Translations under genes and position numbers: made by a program
DNA from: Bdellovibrio sp. SKB1291214
GTDB lineage: Bacteria; Bdellovibrionota; Bdellovibrionia; Bdellovibrionales; Bdellovibrionaceae
Length of the DNA: 64,000 bases
Assembly: GCF_002209355.2 (NCBI RefSeq)
Contig: NZ_CP106855.1
Span: forward strand, 3,596,001-3,660,000
Reading direction: 5' to 3'
Notes under the pieces: generated by a model
What the model was told of the DNA's origin: nothing
Seen by the model: only the letters and a program-made list of their open reading frames with translations
Databases searched by the model: none
Shown: in pieces, positions 26,670-31,967 of the stretch
Numbering within the stretch: the first letter of the stretch is position 1
How the letters are laid out: every line of letters begins with the position of its first letter

Positions 26670-27035
26670 ATGTCTCTAACTAACGATCAACTTGTTGACG
26701 CATTGTCTGCGAAAACAGTTCTTGAAATCGCTGAACTTGTAAAAATGCTTGAAGAAAAATGGGGCGTTTCTGCTGCTGCTCCTGTAGCTGCTGCAGCTGG
26801 TCCTGCTGCTGCTGTTGAAGAAAAAACTGCATTCGACGTAATCTTGGTTGATGCTGGCGCGAACAAAATCAACGTAATCAAAGAAGTACGTGGTTTGACT
26901 GGTTTGGGTCTTGCTGAAGCTAAAGCACTAGTTGAAGCTGGTGGCAAAGCTGTTAAAGAAGGCGCGACTAAAGAAGACGCTGAAAAAATCAAAAAAGCTC
27001 TTGAAGCTGCAGGCGCGAAAGTTACTGTTAAGTAG
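26670..27035 (+). CDS. rplL: 50S ribosomal protein L7/L12
   Basis: 121 residues, the length of E. coli L7/L12. N-terminal dimer domain (1-35), Ala/Pro hinge (38-52) and the C-terminal factor-binding domain with [16 protein letters not shown] and [17 protein letters not shown]. It recruits and stimulates translation GTPases. CTGGAGG precedes the ATG; terminator at 27070. Confidence 0.98.
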
Positions 27036-27069
27036 TCTTTCGAACCAATTCTTGGTTTTGAAAATGCCG

Positions 27070-27097
27070 AAAGCCTCGTGGAAACACGGGGCTTTTT
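27070..27097 (+). terminator. Terminator or attenuator after rplL
   Basis: AAAGCCTCGTG (27070-27080), GAAA loop, CACGGGGCTTT (27085-27095), then TT. If rpoBC lacks its own promoter, this is where read-through would be set. Confidence 0.88.
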
Positions 27098-27134
27098 GCT
27101 TTTTAGCCCTCGTAAATAAAGTCGACCGCCTTGT

Positions 27135-27263
27135 CTTTCGAAAATCCGTGGTCTGCCTCGGCTATTTTCGACCCGCGCATCCATGCGCTCGCCGGGCTTG
27201 GGTACCGCATCCTGCGGGCCCGGAGGTCGAAAATATCCAAGTCAGCCCCCGGATTTCCGAAAG
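27135..27263. repeat. Palindromic element 1 in rplL-rpoB gap
   Basis: Arms of 39 bases, 27135-27173 and 27225-27263, pair with about 6 mismatches; the inner 11 bp (TATTTTCGACC/GGTCGAAAATA) are perfect. They enclose two hairpins: GCGCAT/ATGCGC (27175-27188) and CCGGGC/GCCCGG (27192-27223) with CCGCA/TGCGG inside. The result is a three-way junction. Its reverse complement shares motifs and layout with element 2. Confidence 0.8.
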
Positions 27264-27458
27264 CCAATGCTGACGCGTTAAATCATGGTGTCTAAAAACA
27301 ACAAGCCCCGCGTTTCTTAGATCTCCAAATCGGAGAATCACGTTCAATAAAATAAAAAATCTGACACCGAACTACTTTTTGTAACCAAGAAGTCGGTTTT
27401 ACGGCGATTTCGGTTCTTTATTTTCTTTCAAAACTCCTTATTTGACGTTGAACGAGCG
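27264..27458. other. Spacer between the two palindromic elements
   Basis: 195 bases with no supportable gene. TTTTCTTTCAAAA at 27421-27433 is nearly complementary to 27611-27624 and may extend element 2 outward. Confidence 0.4.
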
Positions 27459-27580
27459 TTTTGGGGAGGAGGCAGGGACGTATATTTTGAGGCCTCCGCC
27501 CCCGCACGATGCGGTATCAAGGGGCGGTTGAGGGCCGGAAGCCCGTGCCCAAAATATACGTCCCTGCCTCCTCCCCAAAA
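27459..27580. repeat. Palindromic element 2 with perfect 31-bp stem
   Basis: 27459-27489 and 27550-27580 are perfectly complementary over 31 bases. Inside are CCGCCCC/GGGGCGG (27496-27502, 27521-27527), which encloses CGCA/TGCG, and GGGC/GCCC (27532-27544), again a three-way junction. The shared segment CCGCAcGATGCGGTA differs by one base from the reverse complement of element 1. Confidence 0.9.
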
Positions 27581-27767
27581 TGCGTCGCTCCGAAGCCAAA
27601 AAAACCGCAATTTTTGAAAGAAAGTAAAGAAGCGAAAGTGCTGATAATTGCTTGATTTTTTGGAAACCCGGACGTAGTTTGGTTCCTTGCGTTTAGATTT
27701 TATTTAATGTGGTTCTTGATTCTTCCGCCCGAAGTGAAGTTTCGATTTTCTTATCACGGAGAGTACA
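27581..27767. other. Gap between element 2 and rpoB
   Basis: 187 bases holding the rpoB leader. The ribosome site ACGGAGAG lies at 27756-27763. No clear promoter was found, though one is likely somewhere in the gap given the terminator after rplL. Confidence 0.4.
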
Positions 27768-30700
27768 TTGGAAAAAACTCCAGTTACGGCTTCTAACATT
27801 CGAGTTAGAAAGTCTTTCGCGAAAAATAAGCAAGTCATTGATATCCCTAACTTGATTGAATTGCAGAAGTCTTCTTACGAAGCTTTCATTCAAAAAGATA
27901 TGGATCCAGATCGCCGTGGCGAAGCTGGTCTTAATGGCGTTTTCAAATCTGTTTTCCCAATCACAGATTTCAACAACACTGCAAGCCTAGAGTTTGTATC
28001 TTACACTCTTGAGCCAGCAAAATACGACGTAGATGAATGTCGTCAGCGCGGAATGACTTTCGCTGCTCCGATCAAAGTTACTCTTCGTCTTATCGTGTTT
28101 GATGTTGATGAAGAAACTGAAGCACGTTCTATCCGTGACGTAAAAGAACAAGAAGTTTACTTGGGCGAAATCCCATTGATGACTGCTAACGGTTCTTTCA
28201 TCATCAACGGTACTGAGCGCGTTGTTGTATCTCAGTTGCATCGTTCTCCGGGCGTGTTCTTCGATCACGACGGTGGTAAAAACAATGCTTCTGGTAAATT
28301 GATCTACTCTGCACGTGTAATTCCTTACCGTGGTTCTTGGTTGGATGCTGAATTCGATCAAAAAGATTTGATCCACGTTCGTATCGATCGTCGTCGTAAA
28401 TTCCCAGTGACAATCTTGTTGAAAGCATTGGGTTACAACGCTGAACAACTTCTTGAATACTTCTACGACCTTGACGAAGTTTACGTTAAAGGCGGCAAGT
28501 TGTTCCGTAAGTTGGACATCGAAAGAATGTCAGGCCAAAGAGCATTGACTGATATCGTTGATCCAAAAGGTGGTGAGGCACTAGTTAAAGCTGGTCGTCG
28601 TATCACTCGCGCGATCGTTAAGAAAATCAAAGACCTTAACATCACTGAGCTTGAAGTTGAACCAAACGACCTTGATGGTAAAGTTTTGGCGAAACCTCTT
28701 ATCGATGAATCTACTGGTGAGATCATCGCGGATGCGAATGCTGAGTTGAACTCTGCGATCATCAAACGCGCGATCGAAGCTGGCATCGAAAGCTTCTACA
28801 TGATCTTCTTCGACGGTTTGACTGTTGGACCTTACCTACGTAACACATTGTTGGTAGATAAAGTTTCTAACAAAGACGAATCTTTGATCGAGATCTACAA
28901 ACGTCTTCGTCCAGGTGAGCCTCCAACTTTGGAAGCTGCTACGACGTTCTTCGGTCGTTTGTTCTTCGATCCAGAGACTTATGATCTTTCTGAAGTTGGT
29001 CGTATCAAGATCAATCACAGATTCGGTATCTCTATGGAAGAGTGCCCGCCGTCTCACAGAACACTGACTCACAAAGATATCTTAAGCACTATCAAAACGC
29101 TTATCGATCTTAAAAACGGTCGTGGTGTTATCGACGATATCGATCACTTGGGTAACCGTCGTGTTCGTTCCGTAGGTGAGTTGCTAGAAAACCAATACCG
29201 TATCGGTTTGGTTCGTATGGAACGCGCTATCCGTGAACGTATGTCTCTACAAGACGTAGAAACAATGATGCCTCACGATCTAGTAAACGCTAAACCTGTA
29301 AATGCAGTTGTTAAAGAATTCTTCGGTTCTTCTCAATTGTCACAGTTCATGGACCAAACAAATCCATTGTCTGAGATCACTCACAAACGTCGTTTGTCAG
29401 CTCTTGGACCTGGTGGTTTGACTCGTGACCGTGCCGGATTCGAAGTACGTGACGTACATCCAACGCATTACGGTCGTATCTGTCCAATCGAAACTCCAGA
29501 GGGACCAAACATCGGTTTGATCGCTTCCTTGGCAACATACGCTCGTATCAACAACTACGGTTTCATCGAGACTCCGTACCGCAAAGTTGAACAAGGCGCA
29601 GTTTCTAAAGACATCAATTACTTGTCTGCATTGGAAGAAGCGGGTCACTACATCGCTCCAGCAGCTCGTGACGAAGCTGGTAACAAAGCTATCCAAACAC
29701 CAACTACTATCACTCGTCGTGATGGTGAGTATGAAATCGTTGATAAAGATAAAGTTGCTTTGATGGACGTTTCTCCATCTCAGCTAGTATCTATCGCGGC
29801 ATCTTTGATCCCGTTCCTAGAACATGACGACGCCAACCGTGCGTTGATGGGATCGAACATGCAACGTCAAGCGGTTCCATTGTTGCGTTCTCGCGCACCA
29901 CTTGTTGGTACAGGCGTAGAGCGTTTGGTTGCTCGTGACTCTGGTACATCTGTCGTTGTTCAAAACGACGGTATCGTTGAAGAAGTAGATGCATCTCGTA
30001 TCGTTATCCGTCGTTTCGCTAAAGGCGGCGAGTTGGGTGCGAACGTTGATATCTACAATTTGACTAAGTACCAACGTACGAACCAAAACACATGCTTCAA
30101 TCAAAAACCAATCGTAACTGTTGGTGACAAGGTTTCTAAAGGCGACATCGTTGCTGACGGACCTTCAACTGAGCTTGGTGAGTTGGCTCTAGGTCAAAAC
30201 ATCCTAGTAGCGTTCACTCCTTGGCAAGGTTACAACTTCGAGGACTCCATCCTTATTTCTGAGCGTTTGTTGAAAGACGACGTTTACACATCTATCCACA
30301 TCGAAGAATTCGAGTGCGTAGCGCGTGACACGAAACTAGGTAAAGAAGAGATCACTCGCGATATCGCAAACGTTGGTGAAGAAGCACTTAAAGACCTTGA
30401 TAGCTCTGGTATTATCCGCATCGGTGCGGAAGTTCGCCCTGGCTTCATCTTGGTTGGTAAAGTGACTCCTAAGGGTGAAACTCAACTTTCTCCTGAAGAA
30501 AAACTTTTGAGAGCGATCTTCGGTGAAAAAGCTGGTGACGTACGTGATACATCACTTCGCGCACCATCTGGCGTTTACGGTACAGTTATCGATGCTCAAG
30601 TTTACTCTCGTGAAGGCGCAGACCGCGATGAGCGTTTGTCTTCCATCATCGAAGAGAAAAAACGCAAGCTTGAAAAAGACTTGGCTGTTGAGCAAAACGT

Positions 30701-31967
30701 TATCAAAAATAACTCCATCACGAAACTTCGCGATATCTTGGTAGGCAAAATTACTACTGGCGTATTGTTGAATGAAGATGGATCTCAAAAACTTTTGAAC
30801 AAAGGTCAATCGATCACAGTTGCGGATATCGAAACAATTCCATTTGAATTGTTGAACTATATCCCTCTTGAACAAGACCTTGAGTTCCAAGTTAACAAAA
30901 TCATCGACAACGCTCGTAACCAACTTGACGCAGTTAAATTGGTATTCAACGAGAAGATCGATCGCCTTCGTAAAGGTGACGAGCTTCCTCCAGGCGTTAT
31001 CAAAATGGTTAAAGTTTACGTTGCGATTAAACGTAAAATGCAAGTCGGCGATAAATTTGCCGGCCGTCACGGAAATAAAGGTGTCGTTTCTAAAGTATTG
31101 CCTGTTGAAGACATGCCTTACCTTGCAGACGGTTCTCCGGTTGACATGGTCTTGAATCCACTGGGCGTACCTTCACGTATGAACATCGGTCAGGTCCTTG
31201 AGGTTCACTTGGGTTGGGCAGCGCACAACTTGGGTAAACAAATCGGTTCTCACCTTGAAAAGTGGAATGCAGAAAACGCACGTAAAGAAATGAAAGATAT
31301 CTTCAATGACTCTGATATCAGCGCAAAACTTGATGGCGCTGATGAAGGTTCTTTGAAATCAATGGTAACTCGTATGAAGAACGGTATCCACGTTGGAACG
31401 CCGGTATTCGACGGTGCTCGTGAATCAGATGTTAAGAACTTGCTTGCGAAAGCAGAAGTTCCACTTTCTGGTAAGTCCATCCTATTCGATGGTCGTACTG
31501 GCGAGCCGTTCACGAACCCAGTTACTGTGGGTATCATGTACATGCTTAAACTTCACCATCTGGTTGAAGAGAAGATCCATGCTCGTTCTATCGGACCTTA
31601 TTCTCTCGTTTCGCAACAGCCATTGGGCGGTAAAGCTCAATTCGGTGGTCAGCGTCTAGGGGAGATGGAAGTTTGGGCGATCGAAGCATACGGTGCTGCA
31701 TACTCTCTACAAGAGTTCCTAACTGTTAAGTCAGATGACGTAGCTGGTAGAACTCGTATGTACGAAAGTATCGTTAAGGGTGAAAACATCCTTGAGCCGG
31801 GTCTTCCTGAATCGTTCAACGTTCTAGTGAAAGAGCTTCAGTCTCTTGCATTGAATGTTGAGTTGATGGAGTCCGACATCCTACGCGATCAAGATGAAGA
31901 TCTTGATAACGGTGGCGATGTTATTGAAGCAACTGTTGTGGCTCCTACTGAGCCAGAGCAGCACTAA
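27768..31967 (+). CDS. rpoB: DNA-directed RNA polymerase beta subunit
   Basis: 1399 residues. Forms one pincer of RNA polymerase and part of the active site. The rifampicin-pocket stretch [23 protein letters not shown] is present in wild-type form, with [19 protein letters not shown] after it; the catalytic Lys regions [10 protein letters not shown] and the C-terminal [18 protein letters not shown] follow. The start is TTG at 27768 after ACGGAGAG, with no in-frame ATG in a better place. rpoC follows 27 bases on. The subunit is longer than in E. coli (1342). Confidence 0.98.

Follow-up and report, generated by a model that had tools for sequence, protein, structure and literature searches.

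The rplL-rpoB locus

The window analysed here, the whole 64,000-nt stretch of DNA, belongs to a complete 3.68 Mb Bdellovibrio genome and includes rplL (26670-27035) and rpoB (27768-31967). Two palindromic elements occupy the gap between these genes: E1 (27135-27263), read on the minus strand, and E2 (27459-27580), read on the plus strand. A first-pass annotation had proposed two related palindromes in opposite orientation here; both lie where it placed them and fold better than all shuffled sequences, with folding-energy z values of -9.2 for E1 and -11.6 for E2 (0 of 200 shuffles as good). Alignment also confirms the common core that it described, CCTCCG and CCGCA-x-GATGCGGTA, together with an inner stem that differs in sequence yet stays paired, CCGGGC/GCCCGG in E1 versus CCGCCCC/GGGGCGG in E2. 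The proposed extent is right in its coordinates but too short for the arms, since inverted repeats continue beyond both ends.

In E1, a three-way-junction cap is predicted by folding at 27170..27228 (minus strand, GACCTCCGGG...GGGTC), and the covariance model R1, whose seed includes E1, matches at 27150-27248 with 94.2 bits. The cap holds two minus-strand hairpins. Folding, repeats and alignment support the first (27192..27223, CCGGGC-CCGCA-GGA-TGCGG-TACCCAA-GCCCGG), and the second is predicted by folding (27175..27188, GCGCA-TGGA-TGCGC), with a GGA loop that most family copies keep. The closing stem, also on the minus strand, joins a 3' (right) arm on the rplL side, identified from the fold (27135..27172), to a 5' (left) arm supported by the fold, the inverted repeat and arm composition (27226..27263). 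The right arm is probably the original, its decayed extension reaching the rplL terminator, and the left arm probably its inverted copy. This longer, decayed inverted repeat spans 85 nt, pairing 27089-27173 with 27225-27309 at 72%, and includes half of the rplL terminator; the outer end of its minus-strand copy at 27225..27309 resembles part of that terminator in inverse orientation.

The plus-strand element E2 has the same plan. Its predicted cap (27491..27549, GGCCTCCGCC...GTGCC) is matched by R1 at 27471-27568 with 88.5 bits, E2 being in the seed as well. Hairpin 1 (27496..27527, CCGCCCC-CGCA-CGA-TGCG-GTATCAA-GGGGCGG) is supported by folding and alignment, and hairpin 2 (27532..27544, GGGC-CGGAA-GCCC) is predicted by folding. 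The 5' (left) and 3' (right) closing arms, 27456..27489 and 27550..27583, form an inverted repeat of 34 nt at 97%, and an outer pair, 27408..27433 with 27612..27637, matches at 92%. The geometry of the divergent pair leaves a spacer at 27264..27458. Such inverted repeats are almost absent from control regions placed 500 nt away with matching geometry. At this locus neither element qualifies as an intrinsic terminator, that is, a GC hairpin with a T-tract on the mRNA strand. The rplL terminator is intact, separate and upstream of E1, and is the sole terminator-scoring site in 27036-27790.

A dispersed family with a common cap

Genome searches establish E1 and E2 as two members of a large family of dispersed hairpins that occurs in Bdellovibrionales and some relatives. 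By blastn, the home genome contains additional copies, and 11 of 40 genomes give matches. R1, built from 19 copies (alignment A2) and rewarding long stems, matches 22 of 24 genomes in the genus and 37 of 99 in the order, covering 18 of its 54 genera; at E 1e-4 it matches 51 of 369 genomes in the phylum, mostly in the order, plus five elsewhere, the distant counts including weaker matches and loci of which a part was inspected individually. A second model of the cap, R3 (alignment A4), matches 23 of 24 genus genomes with up to 33 copies each, and merging the listed R1 and R3 matches gives 21 places in the home genome. Loci from distant families that were inspected directly share a skeleton of GACCTC..., an inner branched helix, CGAG or CAGAG, a GGA-loop hairpin and GTGTC. 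Covariance-model matches in this and related genomes thereby bear out the expectation of a family that is dispersed, lies mostly between genes and has strongly covarying stems.

The first-pass annotation recognised no known family, and Rfam agrees: in the window only tRNAs reach the gathering score, and family members give only sub-threshold matches, mostly to microRNA-precursor hairpin models. Phage and plasmid records contain no similar DNA. A pattern scan of genome contigs gave 22 matches, two of which R1 confirmed (E < 1e-10), both of Bdellovibrio type; one match on a viral contig failed R1 confirmation and was discarded. Open-licence papers hold no description of such elements in Bdellovibrio, so that the family is apparently undescribed, its novelty being unproven on this part of the literature. 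Eight attack-phase sRNAs have been reported in strain HD100 (PMC3627812).

Structurally, it is the cap that is conserved: about 55-75 nt forming a three-way junction, with CCTCC, two hairpins with NGA/GGA loops and GTC, which pairs with GAC. Private arms of about 20-85 bp close it, giving elements of 100-200 nt. E1 and E2 represent type A, which runs from the P1 arm through CT, P2 (CCGGCC/GGCCGG), P3 (CCGCA-GGA-TGCGG), TACCCAA, CGA, P4 (GCGC-CGGA-AGCGC) and GN to P1'. In type B, which occurs in the genus, an extra hairpin (CCGGC-GAA-GCCGG) replaces TACCCAA, and a third cap form lies upstream of an apparent SRP RNA that precedes dnaX. The AGGAT loops had suggested CsrA-type GGA sites, an idea that was dropped because many copies have CGA instead of GGA. 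Covariation is found in 14 of 24 cap pairs (score 0.282 versus 0.084 for shuffled alignments) and in 22 of 23 arm pairs; helices of both parts therefore covary in the way sought in structured noncoding RNAs, although covariation alone is no proof of a structured RNA.

Folding strand and private arms

Mismatches within the helices indicate which strand folds. Pairing of purely double-stranded DNA should leave G.T and A.C mismatches about equally frequent. Among well-paired stretches read on the CCTCC strand at independent loci, G.T outnumbers A.C by 50 to 16 (p 3e-5), and 35 elements carry only G.T mismatches against 8 with only A.C. Orthologue counts are 18 G.T and 2 A.C. The stricter rule behind the main test was adopted with these orthologue counts already known, so that the test was not blind and its result is somewhat weakened. 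A looser census gave 134 G.T and 102 A.C, with no clear asymmetry; it was set aside as evidence against single-strand selection, since poorly aligned outer arms dilute it. A.G and G.A mismatches are common too, many of them from one conserved internal loop and hence non-independent.

The G.T excess points to selection on single-strand folding, and it is the CCTCC strand that appears to fold. The excess is strongest where both neighbouring genes are antisense to that strand (28 G.T versus 4 A.C, orthologues included), so that host mRNA folding fails to account for it. The folded strand is possibly single-stranded DNA or an independently started RNA, and the excess could also come from RNA made off an unrecognised promoter.

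The arms are copy-specific and nearly perfect, up to 85 bp long; within a genome the outer arms are mostly unrelated, with a few cross-matches somewhat above shuffles, while positions nearest the cap are partly common within subfamilies. The clearest case is locus L123, where the arms run 83 bp with zero mismatches. A convergent gene, named a permease from its sequence, supplies the right arm with its 3' end, the last 27 coding nucleotides included. The left arm is the inverted copy, beginning immediately behind the other gene's stop codon. Arms of such length and perfection, one of them taken from coding sequence, need an event at the DNA level.

Composition agrees with this direction of copying beyond L123. 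Among 82 independent elements, left arms differ from their flanks in G+T fraction (p 4e-8 in the genus and 6e-4 outside it), and right arms do not. Together with the decayed outer arm of E1 at the rplL terminator, this supports a reading of the right arm as the original and the left as a probable copy, for which L123 gives direct evidence. A DNA-level origin of arms, as read from sequence, is thus shown at a single locus, L123, with statistical support at others; selection instead of copying could also produce the left-arm departure. The DNA to the left of elements is itself G+T-poor on the CCTCC strand (0.39-0.42), and the right side is balanced.

Once present, arms change while keeping their pairing. 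Orthologous arms differ by 57 compensated double changes (27 of transversion type) versus 47 single changes, with comparisons taken as independent. Compensated change is gradual at L075/L081 and in E2 across three species, and at L076/L078/L111 nearly the whole arm has been replaced with its pairing kept. The earlier reading of such compensation as selection on structure is therefore incomplete: part of the arm pairing arises by inverted DNA duplication, and the G.T excess indicates selection on single-strand folding as well.

No clean pair of empty and filled sites with both junctions was obtained. One candidate empty site, L072 compared with G022, is better explained as a secondary internal deletion of the cap, as the inner TGCATTCCGC of the element is retained. 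In G022 (L263/L269, G022:C1:2501682-2501720), a short palindrome resembles a cap-deleted element; its outer arms remain paired, with compensated changes separating them from the orthologue.

These findings bear on whether the family encodes a structured RNA, with the CCTCC strand transcribed from each copy, the junction and NGA/GGA loops binding a protein and the duplex being processed, for example by RNase III. One-strand G.T excess, junction nucleotides and loops kept across the order and covarying cap helices are all typical of RNA. Yet with the bias strongest where both neighbours are opposed, every copy would need its own promoter, and a sigma70 consensus test found no promoter enrichment in left flanks and no promoter site in the rplL-rpoB gap, a weak test that other promoter types could escape. 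The perfect arms and the coding-derived arm still demand a DNA-level event, and Rfam offers no match. We consider a structured RNA family rather unlikely.

A slightly favoured explanation is a REP-like dispersed family without RAYT, in which caps seed hairpins and arms are templated from flanking DNA. The cap would arrive next to the 3' ends of genes by insertion or copying. There its folded strand could allow a nascent strand or a DNA end to turn back and use the flank as template, which would produce an inverted repeat that is both long and perfect. Further rounds of fold-back copying would rewrite the arms, and selection for CCTCC-strand folding would help maintain their pairing. Such an element would be a non-autonomous, single-strand-hairpin repeat persisting at gene ends. 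In a bolder form of this proposal, held only tentatively, the family is a new kind of bacterial mobile repeat, whose inserted branched cap templates, and later rewrites, private arms from host DNA to give near-perfect local palindromes. Movement of the elements is inferred from their dispersal. The family supplies natural, replicated cases of DNA-level arm copying that would otherwise be read as RNA covariation.

Placement, machinery and known systems

Elements abut stop codons, and the right arm often ends 0-25 nt from one. Outside the genus, 29 of 37 right neighbours point their 3' end at the element, and within it the orientation is split 31 to 26; neighbour ORFs of at least 100 aa were called mechanically, so these tallies carry errors, such as a spurious ORF chosen over rplL at E1. 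Beyond a few coincidences, no neighbour gene family recurs across genera. Housekeeping sites with elements include rplL-rpoB, ssb and the region upstream of the apparent SRP RNA and dnaX. Six species (L062, L073, L105, L110, L116 and L118; G000:C1:1834723 and orthologues) carry an element immediately upstream of this RNA, which looks like SRP RNA by eye from its GGTCCGGAAGGAAGCA motif. Arms there vary between species, and the SRP region is conserved where aligned.

This placement raises the possibility of a 3'-end device, a palindrome that replaces an intrinsic terminator or protects or insulates gene 3' ends, especially convergent ones. The proximity to stop codons fits, as does a site where an ordinary terminator is seen only in species that lack the element: L254 and L257 show a bidirectional one where L066 and L253 carry an element and show none. 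Against it, the G.T/A.C bias opposes mRNA-sense folding at loci whose two neighbours run antisense to the CCTCC strand, E1 sits behind the intact rplL terminator, and no T-tract follows the arms in the loci inspected. Taken together, these points make a 3'-end device improbable.

Close pairs are uniformly divergent (14 of 14, about eight independent loci by location), with 199-407 nt between the members. Some of these spacers contain terminators or short ORFs. Opposed pairs and dispersal are the parts of the suggested REP/BIME likeness that hold up; RAYT, GTAG tag and short conserved arms are the parts that fail. REPs are 20-40 bp long, have conserved arms, carry a GTAG tag and often neighbour RAYT genes (PMC2817692, PMC3733652). 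Of five features compared, the present family has two, being dispersed extragenic palindromes in many copies and forming opposed doublets. It lacks the other three: alignments A2-A4 hold no conserved GTAG foot, the elements are not short 20-40 bp hairpins with conserved arm sequence, and a RAYT partner is missing from some carriers.

Mobilisation by RAYT (Y1) transposases would account for dispersed extragenic palindromes, divergent doublets and the single-strand hairpin bias, and the home genome does have six Y1 matches. However, two genomes with 10 element copies each (G074 and G238) have no Y1 match, and none of 36 Y1 loci inspected has a confident element within about 1.5 kb. The missing tagged foot and the element size of 100-200 nt versus 20-40 bp add to the difficulty. 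The RAYT link suspected at the outset is largely refuted unless those assemblies miss Y1 genes, and we regard it as very improbable. Reverse transcriptase was also rejected as a required partner, with no match in five element-bearing genomes, the home genome included. No mobilising gene was found; under the favoured REP-like explanation, the mobilising or binding protein would be of a non-RAYT kind.

In E. coli without SbcCD and RecA, an interrupted palindrome folds to form an end capped by a hairpin, and an inverted duplication results when this end is replicated (PMC3315005). The SbcD model (TIGR00619) passes its curated cut-off in 1 of 19 phylum genomes tested, carriers and non-carriers alike, and gives matches in 13 of 14 control genomes, 8 over the cut-off. 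This palindrome nuclease may be absent from most of the order, whether or not elements are carried. Since SbcD is missing from element-free genomes too, this is context and not an explanation. A cap could seed fold-back in SbcD-poor hosts much as in E. coli (PMC3315005), and this would generate the arms. Elements at housekeeping loci of these SbcD-poor predatory bacteria allow the origin and persistence of long palindromes to be studied directly.

Several known systems share parts of this picture. Mitochondrial repetitive hairpin-forming elements (PMC2800124) are likewise dispersed intergenic hairpins, in other genomes. CGTC-tagged palindromic repeats (PMC3733652) are also palindromic and lack a dedicated transposase, but each is one short hairpin whose CGTC tag is unpaired, whereas the Bdellovibrio family has a branched cap, a paired GTC and copy-specific arms. 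Inverted duplication in sbcDC recA E. coli (PMC3315005), where a replicated hairpin end gives an inverted duplication centred on itself, provides a model for arm origin; that case is a kilobase-scale rearrangement from an engineered palindrome, whereas here the natural copies number in the tens and their arms measure tens of bp. REPs and BIMEs (PMC2817692, PMC3733652) are the nearest relatives in lifestyle, as dispersed extragenic palindromes, often in opposed pairs, that probably form single-strand hairpins and preserve paired changes. Unlike them, the Bdellovibrio family has a conserved cap, long private arms and a dispensable RAYT, and its combination of conserved cap and private arms inverts the usual anatomy of palindromic repeats.
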